In this document: positions 8,469 through 23,759 of the stretch, one piece after another | Layout: each line of letters opens with the position of its first letter | Position numbering within the stretch: the stretch's first letter is position 1 | Assembly: GCF_020171525.1 (NCBI RefSeq) | Contig: NZ_JAIVAI010000001.1 | Span: 1,302,001-1,366,000, forward strand | Origin: Halobacillus yeomjeoni | GTDB taxonomy: Bacteria > Bacillota > Bacilli > Bacillales > Halobacillaceae | Direction of reading: 5' to 3' | DNA: 64,000 nt | The notes under the pieces: model-generated | What the model was told of the DNA's origin: nothing | Database searches by the model: none | The model's input: only the letters and a program-made list of their open reading frames with translations | Program-made: the position numbers and the translations under genes

Positions 8469-8573
8469 ATGGGCTGTTATGGTGGATACGGCGGATACCG
8501 CGGTAACTCGTTCGTATTGATTGTCGTTTTGTTCATCCTTTTGATTATTGTAGGCGCTTCTTTCTACTACTAA
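8469..8573 (+). CDS. YjcZ-family sporulation micropeptide
   Basis: 34 residues: a Gly/Tyr-rich head (GCYGGYGGYRG), then one hydrophobic helix of about 18 residues (FVLIVVLFILLIIVG) and an aromatic end. This is the layout of YjcZ/YtrI-like sporulation peptides found in many copies in Bacillaceae. RBS AAGAAGGTGGTG precedes the ATG. Stands alone with its own terminator at the edge of the spore-surface island. The precise role is not established; it is probably inserted in a spore membrane. Confidence 0.8.
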   Translation: MGCYGGYGGYRGNSFVLIVVLFILLIIVGASFYY

Positions 8574-8623
8574 AAAACAGACCGTGTGAATCGCCGCTAC
8601 CCGTTCTGAGTGATTCACACAAA

Positions 8624-8662
8624 AAACCAGAGGAGGTCCTTCCCCCTCTGGTTTATTTTTTT
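8624..8662 (+). terminator. terminator after the YjcZ-like gene
   Basis: Stem AAACCAGAGG/CCTCTGGTTT followed by ATTTTTTT. A separate perfect stem GTGTGAATC/GATTCACAC (8584-8619) just upstream lacks a U tract. Confidence 0.8.
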
Positions 8663-8799
8663 ACATCATTTGCTATGATCATAAATACATTCAAAATATG
8701 TCTGATCGTTAGAGAAACTTAAATGAATGTCTTTCATTAAGTGCTGGACTGAGTTTCAAAAAAAGACGGACAAAGGCTGAACGGCTCGTATAACCTATT

Positions 8800-8838
8800 G
8801 ATAAAATAAAATATCCAAGAGGAATAATCCTCTTGGAT
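8800..8838 (-). terminator. terminator after the FbpA-like gene
   Basis: Perfect stem ATCCAAGAGGA/TCCTCTTGGAT with a TATTTTATTTTAT run on the minus-strand side, about 40 bp after the stop of the small gene upstream. Confidence 0.75.
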
Positions 8839-8876
8839 TCAACATGTACTTTATGAGTGCATTATACATTCCTAAA

Positions 8877-9065
8877 TTAAGGATGAATTTCTTCTTTATA
8901 CTGATACTCTACATTAATGAAAATCTGCTCAAGCTCTGTGAGTGTCATGTCGCTTGTCCTTTTTCCGACCCGATCCTGAGTATAACCCATGTCTTTCAGT
9001 TTATTGATCAGATGACTCCTTCGATTCTCTACTCCTCTGGAAAGATAAGTAGGTTCTATAGTCAT
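8877..9065 (-). CDS. FbpA-like small protein (Fur-regulated basic protein family)
   Basis: 62 residues. The central part GVENRRSHLINKLKDMGY followed by DMTLTELEQIF resembles the FbpA family core (a basic RR-x-xLI-x-KL helix, then a LTLSELE helix). In B. subtilis FbpA is one of three Fur-controlled small proteins linked to the iron-sparing response. GGAGGTGAT precedes the ATG. I see no Fur box in the short upstream region, so iron control is not shown here. Confidence 0.6.
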   Translation of the reverse strand: MTIEPTYLSRGVENRRSHLINKLKDMGYTQDRVGKRTSDMTLTELEQIFINVEYQYKEEIHP

Positions 9066-9281
9066 AGAATCACCTCCATTATCAGATCAGTTTGTCCACT
9101 CTACTTATTACTAACCATACCCTTATGTTGCGAATGTTAACCTGTAATATAAAAAATCGCTTCAGGACACTTGAAGCAGTTTTAAACCAGTCCCCAAAAA
9201 AAGATAGAAACTAATACCAATTTGTTTGTATCAGTTTCTATCTTAACTCTCCAATATATGGGAATTTCTTCAGGTTTCATT

Positions 9282-9635
9282 TTAGTAGTAGTATTCTTTC
9301 TTGATCGCCTTCAACTTATAATCCAAACAGTATTTCCCGACACATGGCTTCAAATTGGAACAGTGCGGACAGGAAAGCTGGATTTTGACGAAGTCATCCA
9401 CTACGAGTGTACGAGTGCTTCCTTCGTTGACAGTAAAGACCAGCTGACAACTTTTACTGTCTTCTATTACTATTTGCAAGTGGTCTGAGCACCCCGTATC
9501 AAAAAAGATCGTGATGGAGCCCGTCGCTTTCTTCTTATTTCCTACAATATTGAAGATATCAATCAATCCAGAATTACAAGGAAGACGGAAGTTTCCACAA
9601 ATATCACTGGAACCATTCGCACTACAACTACTCAT
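9282..9635 (-). CDS. DUF3992/Ena-like spore appendage subunit (short N-terminus)
   Basis: 117 residues, no signal peptide. Shares a pattern with the divergent neighbour at 9819: DICGNF-x3-C, a predicted beta stretch GSITIFFDTGCSD, then STRTLVVDDFVKIQL and a closing GKYCLDYKL. From memory this order (Cys after about 12-24 residues, beta-rich core, FxxV-F-x-V/I strand, final F/Y-C-x3-Y) matches the endospore-appendage proteins Ena1A/B of B. cereus. Its head has one Cys (C4) rather than a Cys pair, so it may cap or branch the fibre. The ATG at 9633-9635 follows AAGGATGTG; an upstream in-frame ATG has no RBS. Confidence 0.65.
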   Translation of the reverse strand: MSSCSANGSSDICGNFRLPCNSGLIDIFNIVGNKKKATGSITIFFDTGCSDHLQIVIEDSKSCQLVFTVNEGSTRTLVVDDFVKIQLSCPHCSNLKPCVGKYCLDYKLKAIKKEYYY

Positions 9636-9818
9636 AACGCTCACATCCTTATACATAGTACATGTATTATTAGATGCTAAAAACCTTAGTATTGATACAA
9701 GGCTGGTTCATCAATTATCCATTTTCTATTAATTTTAACCATAACTAGTCATTGGTTTAGTCAATGCTTCTCCTTCTGCATTTACTATTATTAACCTAAC
9801 TACAAGGAGGAAAAAAAT

Positions 9819-10250
9819 ATGGGAAATTGTTGTTGTTGTCCAGATAGAGGCGGCGCGGGAGATTTTCTGACAGATGAGATATGTGGTAATTTTACGATTG
9901 CATGTGGTAATGAAGTGGGAGAGGTAGTATGGACTTCCAATCCTACAGATGCAATGGGAGCACCAATCGGTCCGGCCCAACCTGTAATTGGGACAGTTAG
10001 TGTCTATTTTGATCGCGGGTGTGGAGATACCGTAACTGTACAAATAATTGATGACTCTGGTGATACCGATGTTGTTGTTTCTACTTTCAAAGTTCCTGAT
10101 GCACCACAGAGCTCTACTGGAAATACACGTGCGCAAACTATTACTAAACCATTCACTAAAGTAGTAATTTTTTGTGATGATGATTTAGTTGAACCGAACG
10201 AATTTTGCACAGGAAAATTCTGTATTACTGCTCATTACAACGTAAGATAA
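9819..10250 (+). CDS. DUF3992/Ena-like spore appendage subunit
   Basis: 143 residues, no signal peptide. A flexible head with four consecutive Cys (C4-C7) and Gly-rich linker is followed by DEICGNF (C22), a beta-rich core (VIGTVSVYFDRGCGD), TRAQTITKPFTKVVIF and a C-terminal FCTGKFCITAHY (C130, C135). In Ena1B the head cysteines cross-link to cysteines placed like C22 and C135 in neighbouring subunits to staple a helical fibre; the same positions occur here. RBS AAGGAGGAAA. Divergent from the shorter homologue, sharing a 183-bp intergenic region. Family call is by pattern, not by search. Confidence 0.7.
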   Translation: MGNCCCCPDRGGAGDFLTDEICGNFTIACGNEVGEVVWTSNPTDAMGAPIGPAQPVIGTVSVYFDRGCGDTVTVQIIDDSGDTDVVVSTFKVPDAPQSSTGNTRAQTITKPFTKVVIFCDDDLVEPNEFCTGKFCITAHYNVR

Positions 10251-10256
10251 TAAATT

Positions 10257-10292
10257 AAAAGAAAGGCACGTTTTCACGTGCCTTTCTTTTAT
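10257..10292 (+). terminator. terminator after the Ena-like gene
   Basis: Perfect 14-bp stem AAAAGAAAGGCACG/CGTGCCTTTCTTTT with a six-base loop, immediately after the stop codon. Confidence 0.85.
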
Positions 10293-10391
10293 ATAAACCA
10301 ATAAATATTCATGATTGGTAGTTATATGCCGGCACTTCATACATAGAAGTTTCTTATAATATAGAAATGAAAAATAAGGGGGGGATAAAAA

Positions 10392-10958
10392 ATGAGTTGT
10401 AACGGATGTGGTTGTTGTGGTTTTTGTTGTCCAGACGAGGAACCTCAGCAACAGGGGTTTTGTCCATGTTGTACGCGTACGTTAGTTGATATACTCCAAG
10501 CCATTATAGATCAATCTCCAGGTGAAGCAATCCGCATAGACCTTCCTGGCCCAGCTAATTTTATAGGTGATGCCGTTCCTATCCAAATCAGAAGCGGCTT
10601 CACACTCCAAATTGCTGTCGGACAAAATGAAAACCAAAGTATTGTTAACATCTGTGATATCGTGGCTTTAACTGGAGACCCGGTTGACGATGTTGACTTA
10701 TCCTCAATCCCTGGACAAGAAAATTGTGAATGCTGTGAAGAAGCATTGACAGAAGTCATGGAAGAGATAGCTTCTGATCCTACGAGATCTTTCAATATGA
10801 ATACTCAAGGGCAAAATGCTATGATGTTTAGTAGTGGAAAAAACCCTACTGAAGTTTTTGACGGCGTCGTTCGGTATACAAGCGGAAATATGGGTCAAAA
10901 AGCTATCGTTTCCCTCTGCCAAGTATCTAGTATCGATTTAATTAAACCTCAACTTTAA
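10392..10958 (+). CDS. Cys-rich protein with an 88-residue internal duplication
   Basis: 188 residues, no signal peptide, no family I can name. The head is very Cys-rich (C3, C6, C8, C9, C12, C13). Two units follow in the same register: CPCC at 24-27 and CECC at 112-115, each followed by an amphipathic helix (TLVDILQAIID; ALTEVMEEIAS), then a beta-rich part ending QSIVNIC (C88) or KAIVSLC (C176). All paired cysteines are exactly 88 residues apart. It lies directly after the Ena-like gene, same strand, with its own terminator, so a connecting or anchoring part of the appendage is plausible but unproven. RBS AAGGGGGGGA. Confidence 0.7.
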   Translation: MSCNGCGCCGFCCPDEEPQQQGFCPCCTRTLVDILQAIIDQSPGEAIRIDLPGPANFIGDAVPIQIRSGFTLQIAVGQNENQSIVNICDIVALTGDPVDDVDLSSIPGQENCECCEEALTEVMEEIASDPTRSFNMNTQGQNAMMFSSGKNPTEVFDGVVRYTSGNMGQKAIVSLCQVSSIDLIKPQL

Positions 10959-10974
10959 TAATACCCCTTTTATA

Positions 10975-11010
10975 CCTTTTTGACAGTTGAACTGCAAAAA
11001 GGTTTTATTA
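10975..11010 (+). terminator. terminator after the duplicated Cys-rich gene
   Basis: Stem CCTTTTTG/CAAAAAGG with a 12-base loop and a TTTTATTATTTTC tail, 16 bp after the stop. Confidence 0.75.
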
Positions 11011-11208
11011 TTTTCAAACAAAGTTCAATAGCATATGATGTATAACCGCTTCTCATTATTGTGTTAGAAATCATCCACCTCAAGTAGTGCCGCCACCAAA
11101 GTATACTGTATGTACGTCATAGATTCACTCTCCTTTGATTAATATTTAACAGAGCTCTTGCATATCTTTCATAGAGACGATCACAAAAGACGGACAAGGA
11201 GTGATTTC

Positions 11209-11541
11209 ATGATACCGAGGGGCTTTGATGACATCCAAATAGATAAAGCAGATGTGACAAAGACTATTGATCACATGCTGGAAGCCATTATGACAGAAGA
11301 AAAAGCTTTAGCTGAAATATTAGAATCCCATGCTTGTCATATTCAAAGTTATGTGGAAGAATCACTCCATTCCTCATGCCTATCAGGCGATTCAGATCTG
11401 TACATGCTCAGCCAGTCCCTGAAACGGATTGCCGATCAAATCCTTTTAAAAGAATGGTTGATATTAAAGAAAGTCGAAGTCGTAATTCAATTAAAACAGA
11501 AGTCCTTAGAAACCGAGGGATATCATGCCAATAAAGAATAG
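11209..11541 (+). CDS. helical spore-island protein, distant SFPNIP-family relative
   Basis: 110 residues, mostly predicted helix. DVTKTIDHMLEAIMTEEKAL lines up with the DDVVNLLLASIAFEELGLAH helix of the SFPNIP proteins in this island, and SQSLKRIADQILLKEWLILK with their NKTLKTALKTQMLLQFK helix, so I read it as a diverged paralogue without the N-terminal SFPNIP tag. The start is the ATG at 11209 after ACAAGGAGTGATTTC; the open frame continues upstream without an RBS. Ten bases separate it from the next gene, so the two are probably cotranscribed. Confidence 0.6.
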   Translation: MIPRGFDDIQIDKADVTKTIDHMLEAIMTEEKALAEILESHACHIQSYVEESLHSSCLSGDSDLYMLSQSLKRIADQILLKEWLILKKVEVVIQLKQKSLETEGYHANKE

Positions 11542-11551
11542 GGTGTAAATC

Positions 11552-12016
11552 ATGGGGGCACAACGTAATTTATCCGCTGTTCTATCCGACTTGCTTATTG
11601 CAGCTAATCATTGCAGTTCTTCCATTCACCAGGTCTTGAACGCACTCCAATCAGAAACCCATATGAGTGAGGTTCAGAGACATATGAATAGAAAAACAAC
11701 GAAATACTTCATCGAAGCCCTCGATAGTTTACAAGAAATCCGGAAACTATCTCTAAGAAAAAAAAGTTTATATGATTTAGATGGGTTACTTAATTTAGGA
11801 AATTCAGAAGAGTATGATTCACTGCAACCTGTTTTTTCAGAATTTGAACATTTCGATCTTCACTATGGTGGTATAAAGATTACCACACCTTCTTCAGAAG
11901 CTTGCAATTACGAGTATATAGTAAATAGACAGTTGCATCATACTTATATAAACAAGAGTCTCCCCGCTTCCCCTTGGTTATCCAAGAGGGTCAAAGGCAG
12001 AAAAGAGTCTGGCTGA
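11552..12016 (+). CDS. hypothetical protein of the spore island
   Basis: 154 residues, not recognised. The first 80 residues are predicted helical (SAVLSDLLIAANHCSSSIHQ; FIEALDSLQEIRKLSL) and the rest looks less structured, with many Tyr/His/Ser and a basic end. No membrane segment, signal peptide or catalytic motif. Follows the helical gene at 11209 by 10 bp; the shared helical character suggests a partner role. The stop lies inside the left side of a terminator stem. Confidence 0.5.
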   Translation: MGAQRNLSAVLSDLLIAANHCSSSIHQVLNALQSETHMSEVQRHMNRKTTKYFIEALDSLQEIRKLSLRKKSLYDLDGLLNLGNSEEYDSLQPVFSEFEHFDLHYGGIKITTPSSEACNYEYIVNRQLHHTYINKSLPASPWLSKRVKGRKESG

Positions 12017-12065
12017 TCATTCATCTCTAGAGATAAATGACTAATGTCCAGACTCTGTTTATTTT
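12004..12065 (+). terminator. terminator after the 11209-12016 gene pair
   Basis: Outer stem AGAGTCTGG/CCAGACTCT with an inner TCATTCATCT/AGATAAATGA, then GTTTATTTTAT. The following 240 bp to 12307 hold no gene that I can see. Confidence 0.75.
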
Positions 12066-12307
12066 ATATATAAAATAAGTTTGTGATACCTTAGATTTAT
12101 AAGAGGTTAAAAAACTATATACAAGCAGGTCCGGCCAATATCCTGGTCATTATTTTATTAAGGTTCTCATCTCCAATAGTCTCATTATATCTTTATTTCA
12201 ATTATGTATCCTCCAATAACAAAGAGACTTCTTCACCCAAAGACAGATTCTAGCAATACCATTCTTATTTTCTCCCCCCTCTACAAGCCCCTACCTAGCT
12301 TTTTTAC

Positions 12308-12342
12308 AAAAAAAAGAAGGGAGTGATTTTTCACCCCTCTTC
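12308..12342 (-). terminator. terminator of the minus-strand SFPNIP gene
   Basis: Minus-strand stem GAAGAGGGGTGA/TCACTCCCTTC followed by eight U residues, about 100 bp after the stop at 12441. Confidence 0.75.
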
Positions 12343-12440
12343 CTTCCTCCCTCTCCTTGTTCTAATTTCATATATCTGATTAGAAAAAGGAGTACAATAT
12401 GTTGTTTTTCTTCATTCAATCAATATAAGTAAAATAATAT

Positions 12441-12749
12441 TTATTCACAAGGGTCTGGAGGACAACAATCATCTTCAGGTATGTCCAACACATCTTCCAG
12501 CTTGAATTGTAATAACATCTCTTTCTTGATCACTGTACGCAGCATCCTTTCTACACTTTTATTCACTTTTAAGAGCTCATTCACATCACAGGATTTCTGT
12601 ATACCTTTTTGCAGTTTTTCTCCTTCTGCATTCAGTATATGAGCTAAACTCAATTCTTCGAAAGCTATGGAAGAGAGCAGTAGATTGATGACATCATCCC
12701 GGCATAGCTCTATTTTCGGGTTAACATCGGGAATGTTCGGAAATGACAT
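12441..12749 (-). CDS. SFPNIP-family helical spore-surface protein with Cys tail
   Basis: 102 residues. Starts [15 protein letters not shown], then [20 protein letters not shown], a second helix, and [15 protein letters not shown]. This small family occurs in many copies in spore formers, alone or fused to collagen-like repeats, and lacks a named function as far as I know. This copy ends in a Cys/Pro tail ([10 protein letters not shown]) absent from the other copies, suited to disulphide or metal cross-linking. RBS AAAAGGAGGAAGG. Divergent from the 12959 copy. Confidence 0.7.
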
Positions 12750-12799
12750 GATGATCCTTCCTCCTTTTAATTGTGCTTATCCTCATATATATGTGTATG

Positions 12800-12852
12800 A
12801 GACAGGTTTAGTACAACTCTCCCGTATACGGGGAGTTGTACTAAACCTGTCT
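12800..12852. repeat. 53-nt near-perfect palindrome between divergent genes
   Basis: Arms of 20 bp (12800-12819 and 12833-12852; left arm begins AGACAGGTTTAGTACAAC) are perfectly complementary. The 13-base centre is a single T plus the perfect palindrome CCCGTATACGGG, giving about 26 paired bases per arm. It lies between two divergently transcribed SFPNIP genes, where a terminator would make little sense, and neither side has a U tract. Confidence 0.9.
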
Positions 12853-12958
12853 AAATTATTTCTCTCTTAAAAGCAGTAGATTTATGGGGACTCATCTCAC
12901 ACAAAGTACACGTTGAAATCATAAACTAGTAATAAAAGTAGAAATGAGGTATAAATCT

Positions 12959-13363
12959 TTGAGTTTTCCTAACATTCCGAATGTAACACCCTCATTCAAC
13001 CTTTCGAGAGACGATGCCGTGAATTTATTATTGGCTTCGATCGCTTTTGAGGAACTCGGGTTAGCTCACATGATCAACGCTGAAGCCGAGAAGATCCAAG
13101 GTGCATTGGGTTTGTTGCCGGGGTCAAGTGTGCCTGCTGCCCGTTCCTTTTCTGAAGTTCTGGAAGCTAACGAAAGCGCCAATAAAACACTGAAAACCAT
13201 TCTAAAAACCCAAATGCTTCTTCAATTCAAGTTGGAAGATGTCATCGATATCATCAATCAAAAAATTCAAGTCTTTGAAAACACTGCAACTGCCACTGGA
13301 ACTTTTGAAGGCCAGACCGTATCAGATTCTGATAGTGCCTTTTACCACATAAATGTGGCTTAG
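12959..13363 (+). CDS. SFPNIP-family protein fused to the end of a DUF11-like repeat
   Basis: 134 residues. Residues 1-100 are the helical SFPNIP module ([36 protein letters not shown]). The last 27 (NTATATGTFEGQTVSDSDSA and on) match the end of the 119-residue repeats in the next gene, such as NVATATGTGENSGVEVDDTD. The start is a TTG at 12959-12961 after GAGGT; the in-frame ATG 15 bp upstream overlaps that RBS. Thirty-four bases separate it from the repeat protein, so the two are probably one transcript. Confidence 0.7.
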   Translation: MSFPNIPNVTPSFNLSRDDAVNLLLASIAFEELGLAHMINAEAEKIQGALGLLPGSSVPAARSFSEVLEANESANKTLKTILKTQMLLQFKLEDVIDIINQKIQVFENTATATGTFEGQTVSDSDSAFYHINVA

Positions 13364-13397
13364 GAAAAATTTAAAAATACTAAAGGATTGATTTCAT

Positions 13398-15281
13398 ATG
13401 CCTGTAATAGGTGGTATCAATTTAGGTAATTTAACCGATTATCTGTTTTTCTTCGCTGATGGACGTATTGATGCGAACTGGCAGGGGGCTTCGAAAGGAT
13501 ATGTGGGAGATGTAGCCGTTGACGGCTTACAAGCCGACTTGAGAACCTCGGGAACCGTTCCTTATGCTGGTACAATTTTCACGAATGCTAATACTCAAGG
13601 TGCTTGGCAGGACATCATTGATGATAACCCAGGTCAGGCGAATGGTGTGACGAATCAAGCAGCGCTCATATCCGCGTTGGAGGCCGATTTGATCAGTTCC
13701 ATACAACAAATCAACGCCCTCCCCGCTACACCGGGTTTTGAAAGCGTCTCATCCACTTCCCTCAATGGTTTGGATACGACCAATGGAATGAATGAAACGT
13801 TCGTTATCAATGTGACGTCAGGATTCAATTACTCCACTAAAATCAATATTACCGGGGATCCCGGGGATGTTTTCATATTAAGGTGGGACACAGATGCAGA
13901 CCCAAGCAACGGATATCAGGGCCAGGTAAAACCCCAAAGTGGCGGGGCCATCGTTCCTCACGGCGGACTGACTGCGACGAACTTCATTCATGTCGCCGGT
14001 GATATCAATGCTTCCGGTGGAGGAAGTACGCCTGCCCCCCCTTACCCTCAAGGACCAAGATTCGATGACGGGCAAGGAGCGCTCATCAACGGTGGAAGCG
14101 ATTTTAGCGGAGGAGGATTTTTTACGGGGTACTGGCTGACTACAGGAGCTCCCACTTCTCTTCTGCCGGGAACCGAAATGGATCCGATTTACTTTGGTGA
14201 AACCTCTTCTTTCAGCAATGCCATATTCGTGGGAGGTTGGTATACCCTCACTACAAAATTCAGTATGACTTCTGGAACGAGTGGTGTGTACGTGTCGCCT
14301 AACCCAGCCACCATAGAAGAGAATGAACCTGCAATTGATATAGAAAAGTTTGTATCCGTTGATGGAGGTACCACTTTCTTTGATGCAGATACCCCTCCAG
14401 GACCTATATTGGATACATCCACCTACCCTAATGTTCACTTTAAATATGTCGTTACGAATATTGGTAATGAACAGTTGGTGGACATTGATGTGACGGATAA
14501 TATATACAGTAACATCATTTTGAACCAGACACTGGACCCAGGTGAATCGTTCCAACAATTCCTGGTGGTCCCTGGAGTTTTAGGGAACAATCAAAATATA
14601 GGTACGGTAACCGGTGAAGGTGCGATTAGTGGGACCCCGGTGTCGGACAATGACCCGGCGAATTACATCGGAGTCGCAGAGTCCATCTCGATCGATGTGG
14701 AGAAACTGGTTTCCCCTGATGGTGGTATGACCTTTTTCGATGCTGATAATCCTCCAGGTCCTAACGTCATTTTCCCACAGGATCCTCAATTCAAATTCAT
14801 CGTGACGAATACGGGCGACGAAACGTTGGTAGATGTTGAAATTACTGACAACGTGTTCGGCACTATCGCAAGTGGCCTCACTTTACTATCCGGCGAATCT
14901 CATGAAGTCACAATTGTAGGTTCATGGATGCTTGGACAGCAATCCAATGTCGCTACTGCCACAGGTACTGGTGAAAACAGCGGTGTGGAGGTTGATGATA
15001 CAGACCCAGCCTATTACTTTGGAGTTGAAGCTGGTGCCATCCCTTCTATAAAGATTGAAAAATTAGTTTCTGTCAATAATGGCCAATCATTCTCAAATGC
15101 TGATGTCTCACCAGGACCATTACTTCCGCCGGGGGTCACTCCTCAATTTAAATTCATCGTGACGAATAATGGAGAAACCCCGCTGCAAAACGTATCGGTC
15201 GTGGATAACATTTATGGGTTCATCGGGTTCATTCCAAACATGGTCCCAGGTGAAGTCCAAGAATTCATTCTTGCCCCTTAA
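13398..15281 (+). CDS. large surface protein: beta-rich N-terminal domain plus three DUF11-like repeats
   Basis: 627 residues, no signal peptide or sortase/anchor motif. Residues 1-310 are Gly/Ser/Thr/Asn-rich, with GDPGDVFILRWDTD and FIHVAGDINASGGG; they weakly resemble ice-binding-like (DUF3494) beta-helical domains. Repeats of 119 residues begin at about 312 (AIDIEKFVSVDGG), 431 (SIDVEKLVSPDGG) and 550 (SIKIEKLVSVNNG), each with a V/IVTN-x-G core as in DUF11. The third stops after 78 residues, lacking its final strands. Probably an adhesive or stalk protein on the spore surface, exported by mother-cell assembly rather than secretion (inference). RBS AAAGGAT. Confidence 0.7.
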   Translation: MPVIGGINLGNLTDYLFFFADGRIDANWQGASKGYVGDVAVDGLQADLRTSGTVPYAGTIFTNANTQGAWQDIIDDNPGQANGVTNQAALISALEADLISSIQQINALPATPGFESVSSTSLNGLDTTNGMNETFVINVTSGFNYSTKINITGDPGDVFILRWDTDADPSNGYQGQVKPQSGGAIVPHGGLTATNFIHVAGDINASGGGSTPAPPYPQGPRFDDGQGALINGGSDFSGGGFFTGYWLTTGAPTSLLPGTEMDPIYFGETSSFSNAIFVGGWYTLTTKFSMTSGTSGVYVSPNPATIEENEPAIDIEKFVSVDGGTTFFDADTPPGPILDTSTYPNVHFKYVVTNIGNEQLVDIDVTDNIYSNIILNQTLDPGESFQQFLVVPGVLGNNQNIGTVTGEGAISGTPVSDNDPANYIGVAESISIDVEKLVSPDGGMTFFDADNPPGPNVIFPQDPQFKFIVTNTGDETLVDVEITDNVFGTIASGLTLLSGESHEVTIVGSWMLGQQSNVATATGTGENSGVEVDDTDPAYYFGVEAGAIPSIKIEKLVSVNNGQSFSNADVSPGPLLPPGVTPQFKFIVTNNGETPLQNVSVVDNIYGFIGFIPNMVPGEVQEFILAP

Positions 15282-15283
15282 AT

Positions 15284-15327
15284 AAAGAAGAAGGAGAATC
15301 GCTAATCTCGATACCTCCTTCTTCTTT
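15284..15327. terminator. bidirectional terminator between convergent genes
   Basis: Perfect 13-bp stem AAAGAAGAAGGAG/CTCCTTCTTCTTT with an 18-base loop, between the repeat protein and the convergent methyltransferase-glycosyltransferase. It is A-rich on the left and T-containing on the right, usable in both directions. Confidence 0.75.
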
Positions 15328-15353
15328 CATTAATGATGCTATATTATTTAGAG

Positions 15354-16976
15354 CTAACTTGGTTCCTCTCCTGCAACAAGTTTAAACAGGTAATCTTCTA
15401 GATTCTTGCTAGCTTCAGTGAACGAAAACGCCAAGGCTGTTTCTCTTCCTTTTTTGGAATAATAATTTCTCGCTTTTTTATCTTTCAAGAGGAAAATGAT
15501 ATGATCTTTTAGTTTCTCTACATCGCCGGGATCTGCAAGTAGAGCATTTTTTTCATTTTCCGCATATACCTCCACTCCTCCACACGCTGTCGTTACGACA
15601 GGAACTCCAGAAGCCATTGCTTCAAGAGGCGGCATTCCAAACCCTTCATACCAGGACGTGAACAAAAAGATGTCTGCTTCCCTATAACACTTTGCCAATT
15701 CTTCCTGTTCAGGCATGACCACATAATCAATAGGGAAAGGGAAAGGTACATTACCAAGGGATGGCATCGATTGACACGCCCACCTCACTTTGAACCTATG
15801 TCCTGAACGCCAGACCCGTACAAGCGTCTGGATCGCAACATCGAATCCTTTGAACAAAAGATTCGGGTTCCCTACTAACAAAATAGTGTTTGTATCAGGG
15901 GGAGAAGCAGGATAGTAAAACTCCGTATCGACACCATTTGTAATTACGTCAGATTCCCTCCCGAACCTTGCCCGGAGAATTTCAGCTATAACAGGGGATA
16001 CACTGGCTAATGATACAGGTTGCTTATAAAAATGGTTCAAATATCCACGTATAGTCTTGTTAAGGTTTTCACCGAATAAGAATTCATGTCCCTGCTCCCA
16101 ATAAACCATCGGGATGCCTGCATTAGAAAACTCCTCCATATTAGAAAACCACCCCACCACTCCTACGTCACACTTTGATAGTTGTGGCAGATAAGATTGA
16201 TTTTCCGGAATTACGATATTCTCATCCACCTCAACCTTCATCCAGGAAGGCAGAGCGCTTTTGTCTTTGTCACTTCTATAAAATGCGATGATCTTATGTC
16301 CTCTTCTCCTCAGGTGAATCATTTGCTGCAAAAGCATTTTCATTCCACCGGTCAAGTTTTTATGCGGGAGAAAATATCCAATCGTTAAACGTTCACGGTC
16401 TGCGATTTTGTCCGGTAATACATGTTTCACCTCCCCTTTCCCTTCCTTTTTTTCGGAAGGGTATAATACAAAAATCTGATGGCCATTTCTTCCTGTCCGG
16501 ACTAATTTATAATCAAAATCGAACTCACAAAAATCCAATTGATACCAGCGGCTCAAATTTGGCTCATTCGTAAAATCCACTTTTTTGGTTTCCGGATACA
16601 AAGGAGTAGATAAAATCAGTGCTTTCTTCGTTCGGGTTAATAGATATTCGACCACCCCTATCCCTTCTTCTTTTTTTACATGTTCCAGCACGTTCAGCAT
16701 CAAAACGACATCATAACTCCCCTTCCCTTCCATACAGTGGTGTAATTCACCCTCATATACTGAATGATAAGCATGTTGATGCAATGGATCGATCGCTTTA
16801 TTGTTGATCTCCACTCCTTCCACCCTGGAAAGTTGATTCTGGTTATTACATATAATTTCTTTCAATAGTCTTCCGTAATCCCCAAAGCTTGTTCCAATAT
16901 CTAAGATAGATTCAGGCTGCAGTTTCTCAATTTCTTCCAAAATATCTAATAAAACTTTGAACTTTTTCTCAGGCAC
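15354..16976 (-). CDS. SAM methyltransferase-GT4 glycosyltransferase fusion
   Basis: 540 residues in two enzymes. Residues 1-170 are a class I methyltransferase (motif I LDIGTSFGDYGRLL, later YDVVLMLNVLEHVKKEEG). Residues about 195-535 are a GT-B fold GT4 enzyme: TIGYFLPHKNLTGGMKML at the start of its N-domain, NGVDTEFYYP, GNPNLLFKGFDVAI, and the nucleotide-sugar E-x7-E motif EGFGMPPLEAMASGVPVV. A GTG start at 16974-16976 follows AGGGGGGAAAT. Likely builds and methylates a glycan; neighbours point to spore-surface glycoproteins, as glycosyltransferases accompany exosporium proteins in B. cereus. The acceptor is unknown. Confidence 0.85.
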   Translation of the reverse strand: MPEKKFKVLLDILEEIEKLQPESILDIGTSFGDYGRLLKEIICNNQNQLSRVEGVEINNKAIDPLHQHAYHSVYEGELHHCMEGKGSYDVVLMLNVLEHVKKEEGIGVVEYLLTRTKKALILSTPLYPETKKVDFTNEPNLSRWYQLDFCEFDFDYKLVRTGRNGHQIFVLYPSEKKEGKGEVKHVLPDKIADRERLTIGYFLPHKNLTGGMKMLLQQMIHLRRRGHKIIAFYRSDKDKSALPSWMKVEVDENIVIPENQSYLPQLSKCDVGVVGWFSNMEEFSNAGIPMVYWEQGHEFLFGENLNKTIRGYLNHFYKQPVSLASVSPVIAEILRARFGRESDVITNGVDTEFYYPASPPDTNTILLVGNPNLLFKGFDVAIQTLVRVWRSGHRFKVRWACQSMPSLGNVPFPFPIDYVVMPEQEELAKCYREADIFLFTSWYEGFGMPPLEAMASGVPVVTTACGGVEVYAENEKNALLADPGDVEKLKDHIIFLLKDKKARNYYSKKGRETALAFSFTEASKNLEDYLFKLVAGEEPS

Positions 16977-17243
16977 TAGATTTCCCCCCTATGACGGCAT
17001 AAATTCCACCTAAGTTCACCCGCCATCTTTGAAAGGCTTTTAATAAACCTAAATGTTTTGATATAACATAGAGATTTCTTTAGAAGAATACCCTTTCATA
17101 AATCTATAGAAGCATGAAAATGAACACCTTATTCAAAGGTTCTATTCTAGACAAGCAATACGTAATATAGAATGGTCGATACATAGATATCATATGGTAT
17201 GACAAAAAGTATCAGAATCCATGGAGGAAGATACATCAAATAA

Positions 17244-17372
17244 AAGCAACCAGGAAAATCAAACGCAAAGAACCAAGGAATCCAATCTTCAGACGGGATA
17301 TTTCTTGTATTCCATGATGCAGATGATGTTCCTATGCCGAATCGTTTCAGTATTCCACACAGTCACCTCTAA
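17244..17372 (+). pseudogene. remnant of a family 2 glycosyltransferase
   Basis: A 42-codon frame between two stops reads as the nucleotide-sugar-binding core of a GT2 enzyme: GKSNAKNQGIQSSDG, then IFLVFHDADDVPMPNRF, where ARNxGI-x3-xG and DADD are family hallmarks. No start codon, RBS or remaining parts were found in the flanking frames, so this is a decayed fragment. The rest of the 930-bp gap (16977-17906) shows no other gene. Found by reading, not by alignment; a chance match is unlikely but possible. Confidence 0.55.
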
Positions 17373-17784
17373 GACCACCCCCAACGATCTCATTACTTAA
17401 CGCCTGAAATACCTGACACATATAATTATCAGCTAGATTTCCACGTCCAACCCAACCACAATATAAAATTGAAGTTTTGTGTAACTCTCCTCCAAATCCA
17501 ATATTTATTTCTTGATAATTTTCTGCTCCTGCATAATTATTATCTTATTTATACCTTTAATCATTTATTACTCTGGATCAGTCGTTTGACTATCCTTATA
17601 TGTGTAGTGATCCCACCCATTCATGGATAATCTCACCGAGCTGACCATTCGGCATTAAATGACTATTGTTCTCATAAAATAATCAGCAGTACCCTGGAAT
17701 ATTTATGAACTTCAGACATCACCTTCAGTCATGTCGTTTAGTGGAAGAGGTGAAGATTACTTTAAGGAGAAGAGCTGAACATGA

Positions 17785-17812
17785 AAGACCTCAGAAGCAC
17801 CTGAGGTCTTTT
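17785..17812 (+). terminator. hairpin with short T run upstream of the GT2-TPR gene
   Basis: Perfect stem AAGACCTCAG/CTGAGGTCTT, then TTTTCG. There is no intact gene directly upstream on this strand; it may be the old terminator of a lost gene in the gap. Confidence 0.55.
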
Positions 17813-17906
17813 CGAGTTCAACTTCCTCTTAAAGGTTTGTTGGAATTCTGCTCCAAACTGAATTCCTTCTAATGTTGAATTAAATACTAAGAAGGAGAGG
17901 AAAACG

Positions 17907-19088
17907 ATGAGAACATCTAAACTGTCTTTGTGTATGATTGTAAAGAACGAAGAAAATTGTATTGCCCAATGTTTGAAAAGTGTAAAGAACGTTGTTGATG
18001 AAATCATTATTGTAGATACGGGTTCCACCGATAAAACCATAGAAATCTGTCGTTCCTTTCAAGCCAAAACTTTTAAATTTGAATGGAACGGAAGTTTTGC
18101 AGATGCAAGGAACCATGCTGTTCAACAAGCATCTGGAGACTGGATATTATGGCTCGATGCTGATGAAGAACTGGATAGAGACGATCAACATCAACTGCTT
18201 GAGGAAAAACCCTTCGAGGATTATGACGCAATCAACATCCACCTGATCAACTATTATGGCAATTACGCGGATAAAAATCACTCTACAAATATCGCTCATA
18301 CCAGACTTTTCAGAAATAACGGGATTAAATTCATAAATAAAATGCATGAACGCCTCGTACTCGATCAAATTCTAAAGGAACGCATCGGTGAATTACCGGT
18401 CAAAGTTCATCATTATGGATACCTTGATGAATTTGTCAAAAATAAAGAAAAATCGAAAAGAAATATGCTTATGTTGGAGCAACAAATCAAGGACGGAGAA
18501 AACGTTCACTTTGCCCACTATTACATCGCGTTAGAACACTACAACCATAAACAGTACCCCCAGGCCTTACAGAGGGTCAATTTATCCATTTTATCTTTTC
18601 TTCTGGAAGACTTCCTTCCACCATCCATGGTTTATAAATTGAAATACTCCACTTTGATAACAATGGGGAGACTTCAAGAAGCCTCCCAAGGAATTGATAA
18701 AGTCATTAATCTCTATCCTGATTTTGTCGATCTGCATTTTTATAAAGGTGTGATTTTGTATTACTTGAAGGATTATGAAGAAGCAATGAAATGTTTTCAC
18801 CATTGCCTTGAGCTCGGAGAAGAGAACATGGATTACTTGGTCTTGAAAGGTGTCGGTTCATTTCAAGCCTGGTACTATATCAGCCTCTGCCAGAAAGAGC
18901 TGAAAAAACGAGAAGACAGCATCATCTCGATTATGAATGCATTACTAATCGCTCCAACGTATGAACAGGGAAGGGAACTCCTTTGTATATACCTGAAAGA
19001 TGAAGAGGATACCCCTGAGGTAGTGGCCGAAAATTTTAAAGGAAAAGATTTATCGAAATTAGAAAAAATCATTCAAGATTTAAAGTAA
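17907..19088 (+). CDS. GT2 glycosyltransferase with TPR-like C-terminal half
   Basis: 393 residues. GT-A domain, residues 1-220: LSLCMIVKNEENCIAQCL, EIIIVDTGSTDKT, FADARNHAVQQASGDWILWL and the metal/sugar motif DADEE. The remainder is helical repeats (YPQALQRVNLSIL; YKGVILYYLKDYEEAMKCFH) like TPRs. Same architecture as SunS-type and other peptide/protein glycosyltransferases of spore formers, where the TPR part binds the acceptor protein. RBS AAGGAGAGG. Probably glycosylates a nearby surface protein (inference). Confidence 0.85.
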   Translation: MRTSKLSLCMIVKNEENCIAQCLKSVKNVVDEIIIVDTGSTDKTIEICRSFQAKTFKFEWNGSFADARNHAVQQASGDWILWLDADEELDRDDQHQLLEEKPFEDYDAINIHLINYYGNYADKNHSTNIAHTRLFRNNGIKFINKMHERLVLDQILKERIGELPVKVHHYGYLDEFVKNKEKSKRNMLMLEQQIKDGENVHFAHYYIALEHYNHKQYPQALQRVNLSILSFLLEDFLPPSMVYKLKYSTLITMGRLQEASQGIDKVINLYPDFVDLHFYKGVILYYLKDYEEAMKCFHHCLELGEENMDYLVLKGVGSFQAWYYISLCQKELKKREDSIISIMNALLIAPTYEQGRELLCIYLKDEEDTPEVVAENFKGKDLSKLEKIIQDLK

Positions 19089-19167
19089 TACAAGGTAGTA
19101 CAAAGTACCCCTCTCAACTTCTTGAATATGATGTTCTTGTATCAAAAAAATTCAAGGAGTGGTTTTA

Positions 19168-19473
19168 ATGTCGTTCCCTAATATTCCAAACGTAACACCT
19201 AATATTGACATCAACAGAGACGATGTAGTCAATTTACTCTTGGCCTCTATTGCATTCGAAGAACTCGGTTTAGCTCACGTCATCAACGCGGAAGCAGAAA
19301 AGATCCAGGCCGTCATCGGTACATTGCCAGAATCTGATCTTCCACCTGTAACCAACATTGAAGAATTATTAGAGATCAATAACTCGGTAAATAAGACACT
19401 GAAAACAGCACTGAAAACACAGATGCTGCTTCAATTCAAAATGGAAGATATCCTTGAGGCAGACACTCCTTAA
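19168..19473 (+). CDS. SFPNIP-family helical spore-surface protein
   Basis: 101 residues, the plainest copy of the family: MSFPNIPNVTPNIDI, RDDVVNLLLASIAFEELGLA, a middle helix after a Pro-rich bend, and KTQMLLQFKMEDILE. Very similar to the first 100 residues of the 12959 protein and less so to the 12441 copy. The ATG at 19168 follows AAGGAG. Follows the glycosyltransferase by 79 bp on the same strand. Confidence 0.7.
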   Translation: MSFPNIPNVTPNIDINRDDVVNLLLASIAFEELGLAHVINAEAEKIQAVIGTLPESDLPPVTNIEELLEINNSVNKTLKTALKTQMLLQFKMEDILEADTP

Positions 19474-19487
19474 TTAACTAAGCCTAA

Positions 19488-19589
19488 ATGAAGAAGCCCT
19501 ATTTAAAAAGCAGCAGACCGGAACCTGACGTAGGAATCATTGAAGTAATATTGGCTTTACTTCTCATAGTCCTTTCCATACTTCGTTGA
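19488..19589 (+). CDS. possible small membrane peptide
   Basis: 33 codons: a basic, Pro-containing head (MKKPYLKSSRPEP) followed by a hydrophobic helix (IIEVILALLLIVLSIL) and a terminal Arg. The head-plus-helix layout is typical of real small membrane proteins, but no clear RBS precedes the ATG, so this is a tentative call. Confidence 0.35.
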   Translation: MKKPYLKSSRPEPDVGIIEVILALLLIVLSILR

Positions 19590-19936: not shown

Positions 19937-19950
19937 GCACTTTGTATGGA

Positions 19951-20023
19951 TGATTCCGATTGGGCTCGAACCAACGACCTCCACCCTGTCAAGGTGGCGC
20001 TCTCCCAGCTGAGCTACGGAATC
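19951..20023 (-). tRNA. tRNA-Val (anticodon GAC)
   Basis: Folds as a full cloverleaf on the minus strand: acceptor GATTCCG/CGGAATC, D arm GCTC/GAGC, anticodon stem CCACC/GGTGG with loop TTGACAG (anticodon GAC), T arm with TTCGAGC, discriminator A. The CCA end is not encoded. Single tRNA with its own strong promoter and terminator. Confidence 0.95.
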
Positions 20024-20063
20024 ATATGTAAGATGTTGTCGCAATTTCTTGCTGACAAGTAAT

Positions 20064-22123: not shown

Positions 22124-22186
22124 TTGTTTAAATTTCCGCTCAGTTGTCTAGAATTAGATATAGACGTCTGACTGAGGGTGAGAACC

Positions 22187-22864
22187 ATGAATTTTGTTGA
22201 TATTACTATAGAATCCCTATTCGGATTCGCAGCTCTATTTGTCATGACCAAAGTTTTAGGAAAAACTCAAATCACCCAAATTACGGCCTTCGACTTTATT
22301 GCTGCTCTAGTTCTAGGAGAACTGGTCGGAAACGCCTTATACGATGATGAAGTAGGAATACTTCAAATCGGCTTTGCTGTCTTCGTATGGAGTGTCCTTA
22401 TTTATGTAACAGAAATCATTACGGAAAAATTCAAGGGGACGCGGAACCTTTTGGAAGGTCATCCATCTCTCGTCATTCATAAAGGTAAAATTGACAGGAA
22501 TCAGTTGAAGAAAAACAACCTTGATATAAATCAATTGCAGCACTTGCTTCGATCGAAAGATGTATTTTCCATGCGGGAAGTTGAATATGCTATCCTTGAA
22601 ACCGATGGAACGATATCCGTTTTGAAAAAAACACCGTATCAATCCGTTACGCAACTAGACCTGAACCTGCCCCCGGCACCTGTACCTCTCCCGACTACTC
22701 TAATTACAGATGGAGAAGTTTTGTGGGACAACCTTGAAGAGGCAGGGCTGAGCGAAAATTGGCTGAATCAACAACTCCAACTCCAAAATGTAAAAGATCC
22801 TAAAGAAGTCTTATTCGCAGAATATAAACATGGAGACACCGAGCTTTATATTCTCAATTTTTAG
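22187..22864 (+). CDS. DUF421 (YetF-type) membrane protein
   Basis: 225 residues: three membrane segments in the first 85 residues, with the conserved FDFIAALVLGELVGNALYD, then a soluble domain (LVIHKGKIDRNQLKKNNL; LLRSKDVFSMREVEYAILE) typical of YetF/YrbG/YkjA. Some members act in spore germination or membrane stability in clostridia and bacilli; this one is untested. The ATG at 22187 follows GAGGGTGAG. Its end overlaps the convergent MBL gene by 11 bases. Confidence 0.88.
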   Translation: MNFVDITIESLFGFAALFVMTKVLGKTQITQITAFDFIAALVLGELVGNALYDDEVGILQIGFAVFVWSVLIYVTEIITEKFKGTRNLLEGHPSLVIHKGKIDRNQLKKNNLDINQLQHLLRSKDVFSMREVEYAILETDGTISVLKKTPYQSVTQLDLNLPPAPVPLPTTLITDGEVLWDNLEEAGLSENWLNQQLQLQNVKDPKEVLFAEYKHGDTELYILNF

Positions 22865-23759
22865 GTGATGGAAAAAAAGTCCAACGAAAATCGGCAATCT
22901 TGTCGTAAACATGTTGGTCTTTTTTTAATCCCAACAAATAGGCAGTCACTGCCGTACGATAAAGCAGCCAATGGCCGAGTCCAGAAGCTTGGACATTGTA
23001 TGCTTGACACATATCGGAGACCACTTGTTCATGAGAAACCCCCTCCGAATAATTGGATAAGTAAACCTCAAGCCAATCCATTAAACTTGTATGATAAGTG
23101 ATGTTCTGGTTTATGGTTTCAGTAGGATCAGACTCAAAAATCCCATGACCGGGTACCGCACCCTCATGATCGATACTCAACAGCCTTTTTAAACTATTCA
23201 CTGTTTTTGTGGCATCCGTAATGTATGGGATTTTATGTTTTGTTAACGTTTCATTACTGAAATAACTATCTCCAGCGTACAAAATTCCATTGATCAATAA
23301 GGCAGCTTGTTGATAACTATGGCCTGGTAGGACAAATACTTCCGCTTCCATAGATCCTATTGAAACCTTTCCTTCTTCAACAACTTCATCGATATGTACG
23401 GCTTCTCCAAGTAGAAATTTATTATCCAGCTCTTCCACTGGATCGTTTCCTCCAAATAAATAAAGAGGTTCAAGCAACGGGTTACGTAAAATGGCTTCTT
23501 CAAATGGAGGAGCCATTGTATGTACAGAGTAGGTTTCCTGGATGTGCCGCGCTCCCCCATAATGGTCGGCATGGGCATGCGTAATAAAAAGGTGCGTCAA
23601 TGGAAGCTCCCGAATTTCGAGCTCCCTGAGCACCTTTTTAATGGAAGAGCGATCGAGTCCTGCATCAATCAACAGGCCGGTTGTCCCCTCTTTTACATAC
23701 CCGATGTTCACTGAACTATGATAGTAAAAACAATCTTCTTTGATATTTTGGAAAGACAT
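22854..23759 (-). CDS. metallo-beta-lactamase fold hydrolase
   Basis: 301 residues. Carries the MBL metal motif THAHADHYGG (about residue 61), the later metal His in LPGHSYQQAALL, the bridging Asp in YAGDSYF and a final PGHG. A C-terminal helical extension (from about residue 215) is like that of glyoxalase-II-related and YobT/YflN-type hydrolases. Substrate not predictable. Separated from the upstream gene by 17 bp. Confidence 0.85.
   Translation of the reverse strand: MSFQNIKEDCFYYHSSVNIGYVKEGTTGLLIDAGLDRSSIKKVLRELEIRELPLTHLFITHAHADHYGGARHIQETYSVHTMAPPFEEAILRNPLLEPLYLFGGNDPVEELDNKFLLGEAVHIDEVVEEGKVSIGSMEAEVFVLPGHSYQQAALLINGILYAGDSYFSNETLTKHKIPYITDATKTVNSLKRLLSIDHEGAVPGHGIFESDPTETINQNITYHTSLMDWLEVYLSNYSEGVSHEQVVSDMCQAYNVQASGLGHWLLYRTAVTAYLLGLKKDQHVYDKIADFRWTFFPSPKN

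Follow-up and report, generated by a model that had tools for sequence, protein, structure and literature searches.

A candidate two-module endospore-appendage island in Halobacillus yeomjeoni

Introduction

How an endospore appendage (ENA) might be anchored, capped and loaded with adhesive proteins is the question raised by a cluster of small genes in Halobacillus yeomjeoni, found at positions 8,469 to 19,589 of a 64,000-nucleotide stretch of contig NZ_JAIVAI010000001.1 (the window, whose numbering is used below). The tip genes of S-ENA fibres are stated to be unidentified (PMC12921279), and a 2021 review reports that ena1/ena2 clusters were not found outside Bacillus cereus sensu lato (PMC8619143). 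We recognised no paper on other DUF3992 loci, and found none on A-ENA, in a searched literature without bioRxiv and the majority of subscription journals. Outside the B. cereus group, the window and its relatives now point to candidate genes for the tip, the base and the attachment of adhesins.

A sequence-only reading had proposed an endospore-appendage island here, and homology supports it: for the two divergent genes through PF13157 and solved DUF3992 chains, and for the SFPNIP proteins through PDB entry 9ihh. We interpret the spore-surface island as two modules, a DUF3992 appendage with cap and base and an A-ENA appendage with a loaded adhesin, and give this interpretation a probability of about 0.66. 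The identity of the parts is strongly supported and their architecture well supported, while the mechanism is one that we infer.

Results and Discussion

The two divergent genes on which the sequence-only reading was built exist as described, at 9282-9635 on the minus strand and 9819-10250 on the plus strand. The profile hidden Markov model (HMM) search named beforehand as a check assigns both products to PF13157 ("Enas", DUF3992; curated cut-off 22 bits), the plus protein with 63.2 bits (E 2.8e-17) and the minus protein with 52.5 bits (E 5.8e-14, scanned from 9656). For the minus gene, the M at 9635, behind AAGGATGTGA, is on sequence a preferable start to the ATG at 9656. The plus protein begins with MGNCCCCPDRGG, the CC-type connector of a fibre subunit, and the solved chain 9i0y likewise begins CSGSALTCCPDKNYVQDKVC. 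The minus protein, with a single cysteine in its N-terminus MSSCSANGSSDIC, has no CC-type connector; the HMM nevertheless places it among the Enas-domain proteins. A profile of 14 rows (both window proteins and 12 relatives) retrieves four solved DUF3992 chains: 7a02, which is Ena1B; 9i0y and 9t3p, presumably S-ENA parts, with 9t3p as Ena1C (a guess from chain number and length); and 8pdz, which we guess to be probably L-ENA. By sequence, this is a genuine ENA locus.

We compared this locus with samples of 22 genomes from the genus, 44 from the family, 328 from the order (121 genera) and 398 from the class; labels G, L and WIN denote genomes, loci and the window, and G000 is the window's own genome. 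PF13157 is present in nine of the 44 family genomes, eight of them among the genus's 22 (G000 included), and in 66 of the 328 order genomes (38 of 121 genera). A third match in G000 (26 bits) lies about 250 kb away at G000:C1:1062832-1063089 (L039 9752-10153); this protein is Cys-rich and very divergent. In a tree with few columns and open forks, from which seven rows (fragments or partial copies) were removed beforehand, the nearest neighbours of the plus protein by path are the CCPD-bearing L008, L009 and L095. The minus protein stands on a long branch beside L096 and L098, Ena proteins of 196-197 aa without a CC connector (Shimodaira-Hasegawa-like approximate likelihood ratio test, SH-aLRT, 89), and is grouped weakly with proteins of that type.

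The helical proteins that had been ascribed to the SFPNIP family proved to be three members and a distant fourth, at 11209. The three are the only matches in G000 at E <= 0.001, our threshold for SFPNIP in genome searches, and all lie inside the island; the two of them that were scanned had no Pfam match above cut-off. Searched against PDB structures, a family profile retrieves 9ihh ("Ex vivo spore-silk A-ENA fibers", released 2026-03-04) at E 9.5e-30, single proteins do so at 6.4e-23 (19168) and 4.2e-21 (12441), and the homology covers about 90 residues, the whole subunit. A Foldseek search with a model that contains a relative ranks 9ihh first; the model is poor as a whole, and the TMt of 0.79 refers to its SFPNIP part. 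Because of these matches we regard the SFPNIP proteins, on homology, as A-ENA-class appendage subunits, and together with the PF13157 pair they place two ENA classes, one of a beta-sheet and one of a helical type, side by side in the window. The fourth protein shares 34% identity over 70 aa with L126 6215-6568, itself a family match at the equivalent position in Rossellomorea aquimaris, and has no match in PDB at E <= 1.

The family occurs in 44 of the 328 order genomes and in at least 520 of 599 candidate stretches from named genomes; we kept 76 loci, all from Bacillota by record titles (Bacilli and Clostridia). Of their 169 SFPNIP open reading frames (ORFs), 82 stand alone, and the domain is followed by collagen-like repeats in 56, by T/S/P-rich sequence in 12 and by other sequence in 19, although truncation at a locus end may have put some ORFs in the wrong class; in 162 the domain begins no later than residue 40. 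Two frames of about 4,900 residues with DUF7507 repeats also have an SFPNIP match (L135 4999-19659 in G356, and G297:C1 at about 1915-1930 kb); in G356 the domain lies at the extreme C-terminus, residues 4803-4883 of 4886.

Whether the two classes belong together is an immediate concern. A rival account, to which we give somewhat less than an even chance, is that two unrelated spore-surface systems became neighbours by chance in a tRNA-side hotspot, so that the Ena pair and the SFPNIP and adhesin products never meet. Several observations speak for it and weigh against our interpretation. Firstly, SFPNIP and Ena co-occur in 11 of the 328 genomes, no more than chance (Fisher p = 0.42), and an Ena domain lies within only one of the 76 named SFPNIP loci (L144; locus DNA examined). 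Secondly, seven other genomes of the genus carry Ena while SFPNIP gives no match in them at the threshold. Thirdly, R. aquimaris AcN35-5 (G111; L126/L141) repeats the window's 11.2-19.5 kb in order and orientation, namely SFPNIP-like (+), SFPNIP (-), adhesin (+), glycosyltransferase (GT) (-), GT2-TPR (+) and SFPNIP (+), with 34% to 80% identity in the parts that BLAST aligns and a dissimilar GT (-), and yields no PF13157 match; the SFPNIP/adhesin/GT block is therefore separable from the Ena block. Finally, a tRNA-Val (GAC) at 19947-20024 lies immediately right of the island. Against a chance encounter stand two cases. In G152, Ena and SFPNIP genes are a few kb apart. In Paenibacillus cremeus (L144) both domains are fused: an Ena protein has an SFPNIP domain where its CC connector would be, and a fibre-type Ena gene lies next to it. 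The Ena part of the fusion is 68% identical to the neighbouring Ena protein (28 bits, which passes); it scores 20.5 bits itself, under the 22-bit cut-off, and no second full-length SFPNIP-Ena fusion was seen among the matches listed for the 398 class genomes.

Returning to the two-module interpretation, its A-ENA part turns on the adhesin-like protein encoded at 13398-15281, in which an N-domain is followed by three DUF7507 cores. The DUF11-repeat protein without signal peptide claimed earlier is thus borne out: the repeats are DUF11-like, and a signal peptide is not evident by eye. A whole-genome PF24346 search returned no match in G000 at E <= 0.001, though the adhesin itself scores 42.3 bits in hmmscan. 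The N-domain recurs at 72-78% identity in four other loci. Complete DUF7507 repeats have 112-119 residues; the adhesin's last ends at residue 78, corresponding to position 75 of the 114 in the model, and the part absent from it is a hairpin resembling NTATATGDYLGQTVSDTDPAYW. Such a hairpin, ENTATATGTFEGQTVSDSDSAFY (33.5 bits), forms the C-terminus (residues 113-134 of the 12944 ORF) of the SFPNIP protein whose gene lies 34 bp upstream.

This arrangement recurs. Seven adhesins (six distinct, as L148 and L149 are 99.9% identical and are taken as one) end at 75-77 of 114 with a hairpin behind an SFPNIP domain, a tally that excludes L288 (G208, interrupted adhesin). The two-gene form is also found in L143, from a metagenome-assembled genome (MAG) named Desulfosporosinus (gap 33 bp), and in L145, from a Bacillota MAG (gap 37 bp); single-chain forms are L142 (hairpin 13.0 bits) and L126 (hairpin by regular expression only). 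By HMM, cores and hairpins are equal in number in five of eight loci (WIN, L143, L145, L142 and L152), and in L148/L149 two internal hairpins fall below the model threshold. The regular expression, which misses the more diverged L145, L148/L149 and L142, finds the hairpin in four of 258 unique SFPNIP ORFs, those of L126, a partial copy of L126, L143 and the window. Among DUF7507 control proteins the last repeat can be judged in L284 and L285 alone, both of wall type and both ending complete; by eye, L281 and L282 look complete and L283 is ambiguous. We suggest, from sequence, that hairpin and unfinished repeat may be the two parts of one split domain, through which the adhesin would be loaded onto an A-ENA fibre.

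The main rival to such a split domain is that the orphan hairpin and the unfinished repeat are a functionless relic of an old SFPNIP-DUF7507 fusion, the window pair being a split gene. It draws on the single-chain versions in L126 and L142, on a fusion with one near-complete repeat in L152, and on the failure of structure prediction to dock the parts: the one-chain adhesin model has a predicted local distance difference test (pLDDT) of 39.2, at which hairpin placement is uninformative. That model, and the Robertmurraya pair L148/L149, in which the two-gene form is less clear (gap 139 bp) and the hairpin weak (9.5 bits), count against capture. However, the two-gene form recurs in the window, L143 and L145 and in the Robertmurraya pair, and simple breakage is therefore less likely; hairpin and truncation are retained at 45-62% adhesin identity, and the wall-type proteins L284 and L285 terminate in complete repeats. 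On balance we give a relic distinctly less than an even chance; the pair is amenable to testing with purified proteins.

Two further observations concern these adhesins. The Robertmurraya N-domain (L148 8542-9321) is of the ice-binding-like family PF20597 (E 6.3e-53) and that of the window belongs to no named family, so that relative to the window the adhesive head is swapped on the same repeat stalk. The L143 adhesin shares 62% identity with that of the window across 626 aligned positions, although its contig (JADQBO010000342.1) was assigned to a Desulfosporosinus bin; this reflects either transfer between distant spore-formers or misbinning.

In the Ena module, the Cys-rich duplicated protein noted at 10392-10958 (Cys-dup) is present and has no Pfam or NCBIfam match above cut-off. 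Its family occurs in 15 of the 328 order genomes, 11 of which have Ena as opposed to 55 of the 313 others (Fisher 7e-6), and lies less than 2 kb from an Ena match in six (G000, G006, G051, G161, G323 and G328). In nine of 17 aligned proteins (one row, L043 of G005, from a separate search; a second place in G109, L120, left out) Cys-dup occurs as the head at the C-terminus of a collagen-like protein, and in G328 (L124) such a protein adjoins an Ena gene. The connector motif CCP[DGPS] occurs within the first 30 residues of 30 among 7830 mechanically called ORFs: 21 Ena, four Cys-dup (window, G006, G051 and G071) and five others. The sequences in G051 are MFCMGKGCCPDRPIVKDEL for Ena and MGGKGCCPDRKFIKIIDRL for Cys-dup. 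The N-terminal connector of S-ENA is directed to the spore (PMC12921279) and the L-ENA tip protein L-BclA bears a CC connector (PMC11952670). By analogy with both, the Ena-like connector would place Cys-dup at the spore-distal end of the fibre, as a candidate cap. Directly behind a CCPD-type Ena gene, two genus mates encode a choice-of-anchor L protein (L035 8152-8892 in G012, L036 10765-11505 in G009); the L035 copy matches NF038133 (E 5.5e-19) and is another candidate tip module.

A cap is made less certain by the four of 15 Cys-dup genomes that lack Ena, and by the connector's presence on just four of eight stand-alone Cys-dup proteins (three of the five adjoining Ena); it is missing in G161 and G323, which have CCCAP, and in L115 and L116, which have neither. 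The fold model (pLDDT 78.4, predicted template modelling score 0.77) shows two halves, each a helix and a small beta-barrel, behind a Cys-rich N-terminus (CCPD) of low confidence that is probably flexible. Foldseek returns 1030 matches at E <= 10, to generic small barrels including Hfq and CgeA, and nothing at E <= 0.001, for which reason the resemblance is generic. That Cys-dup is instead a coat or crust cross-linker, its barrel halves and cysteines forming a surface layer, is an account we hold doubtful, given the enrichment beside Ena genes, the connector common to Cys-dup and Ena, and this generic resemblance.

For the base, relatives provide the guide. Known anchors are Ena1C rings and ExsL, a CotZ-Ena protein (PMC12921279). 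L125 encodes a CotZ-Ena protein (PF10612 and PF13157), and an Ena domain lies inside the BMQ_0737 morphogenetic coat family in all four cases tested (L037, L035, L121 and L123), whose genes are often divergent from a fibre-type Ena gene. Ena1C-like proteins with Cys/Pro-rich linkers are found in L034 (G020, a genus mate) and L093 (G339). BMQ_0737 (NF052457) itself has no match in G000, as against 26 of the 44 family genomes with one. Because the minus protein is divergently encoded and has no CC connector, and relatives carry Ena domains on anchor-type spore proteins, it is a candidate base, anchor or minor subunit.

Taken together, module 1 (9.3-11.0 kb) would build a DUF3992 appendage in which the plus protein, which bears the CCPD connector, makes up the fibre, the minus protein without one is the base, anchor or a minor subunit, and Cys-dup, with an Ena-like CCPD N-terminus on a different body, docks at the spore-distal end as a non-polymerising cap. 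Module 2 (11.2-19.5 kb) would build an A-ENA-type helical appendage from SFPNIP subunits; the hairpin of one subunit would complete the unfinished last repeat of the next gene's adhesin, so that a separately made chain would be attached to the fibre. Donor-strand complementation, or a natural SpyTag pair, offers an analogy for such capture. Glycosylation of the surface proteins would fall to the two glycosyltransferases. If, as we assume of spore-coat parts generally, these proteins are produced in the mother cell, presumably during sporulation, signal peptides would be unnecessary. Two docking codes, a CCP-connector cap and a split-DUF7507 capture, would fit fibres with interchangeable parts whose classes can be joined, as in P. 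cremeus; this we put forward tentatively, as something short of an even bet.

Some results sit poorly with this scheme. Searched singly with phmmer, neither Ena protein retrieves a PDB chain. Sigma-K-like sites (at most one mismatch) precede four of the 12 genes, with a perfect site before 12959 only, and their density is hardly raised in the island (1.63/kb, and 1.21/kb in the rest of the window).

Other features of the island

The remaining genes are listed in Table 1. The YjcZ peptide expected at 8469 is present (PF09680). The claim of three glycosyltransferase genes or remnants did not hold in full, as two were found; a tblastn search (E 1e-3) with these two, one Rossellomorea GT and the L130 ORFs of at least 200 aa detected no further piece in 8-20.5 kb. 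The GT2-TPR gene has a homologue in 32 of the 76 SFPNIP loci. The proteins of 11552-12016, L125 5333-5806 and L129 4376-4879, all small and from SFPNIP loci, share a PWL/PWF-like end by eye.

Table 1. Genes of the island, with positions in the window and the evidence for each assignment.
Feature	Position	Strand	Evidence
YjcZ-type small peptide; neighbouring gene	8469..8573	+	PF09680, E 7.3e-11
Ena/DUF3992 protein without CC connector; candidate base/anchor subunit	9282..9635	-	PF13157, 52.5 bits
Ena/DUF3992 fibre-type subunit, N-terminal connector MGNCCCCPDRGG	9819..10250	+	PF13157, 63.2 bits
Cys-rich duplicated protein (Cys-dup); candidate fibre cap/tip	10392..10958	+	gene neighbourhood, connector, fold model
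Distant SFPNIP-like helical protein	11209..11541	+	34% over 70 aa to L126 6215-6568
154-aa protein, no named family	11552..12016	+	no Pfam match above cut-off
A-ENA-type subunit, Cys-rich tail	12441..12749	-	9ihh, E 4.2e-21
A-ENA-type subunit, TTG start, orphan C-terminal DUF7507 hairpin	12959..13363	+	hairpin, 33.5 bits
Adhesin-like protein: N-domain and three DUF7507 cores, last without hairpin	13398..15281	+	PF24346, 42.3 bits
Methyltransferase domain fused to GT4 glycosyltransferase	15354..16976	-	PF13489, PF00534
GT2 glycosyltransferase with TPR repeats	17907..19088	+	PF00535, PF07719
A-ENA-type subunit	19168..19473	+	9ihh, E 6.4e-23

As to the genomic setting, the 3' end of the tRNA-Val is present once in the window, so that no flanking direct repeat, and thus no integration scar, is seen. 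A phage or plasmid origin was likewise set aside: a search of phages with SFPNIP found nothing, plasmids gave a single matching record (Bacillus velezensis, 806,695 bp), and neither the plus Ena protein nor a Cys-dup relative matches plasmids. Right of the island, the genes at 22854-23759 (metallo-beta-lactamase-fold) and 22178-22864 are about 55% identical to L123 9004-10248. These homologues adjoin the Ena/Cys-dup locus of G051, from another family, and the Ena locus may therefore occupy an old chromosomal address.

Comparison with known systems

The S-ENA of the B. cereus group (Ena1A/B/C) resembles the window in its DUF3992 subunits, in the CC connector of the plus protein and in the opposite orientation of an Ena neighbour, as ena1C to ena1B (PMC12921279). 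The window differs from the S-ENA operon in having one connector-type gene and no tandem enaA-enaB pair, in a minus protein without the Cys/Pro-rich N-terminal linker of Ena1C, and in the Cys-dup gene that follows. L-ENA (Ena3A, L-BclA, ExsL) offers a CC-connector tip protein as a model for Cys-dup (PMC11952670), whose head fold differs; reading the island's ORFs revealed no collagen-like ORF of the kind that lies next to ena3A as tip gene in L-ENA. F-ENA (DUF4183, F-Anchor, F-BclA) follows the same principle of a subunit domain fused to stalk or head proteins (PMC11952670); a scan of ten island proteins, with the 19168 protein outside it, gave no DUF4183 match at E <= 1.

With A-ENA (9ihh) the island shares SFPNIP subunits homologous over their 90 or so residues, whereas the window's subunits add a Cys-rich tail or a DUF7507 hairpin and have adhesin and Ena genes adjacent. 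The R. aquimaris AcN35-5 locus agrees in the gene order and orientation of its SFPNIP/adhesin/GT block, but its adhesin is one chain with an SFPNIP domain and a T/S-rich stalk, its GT (-) is dissimilar, one SFPNIP gene is extra, and Ena genes are lacking. Beyond the known parts, a Cys-dup cap and split-repeat loading of an adhesin are plausible additions, and P. cremeus contributes an A-ENA-Ena fusion. An island with both classes may reveal how spore hairs receive their caps and their sticky proteins and, if our interpretation is true, these hairs are a modular display system of many Bacilli and some Clostridia.

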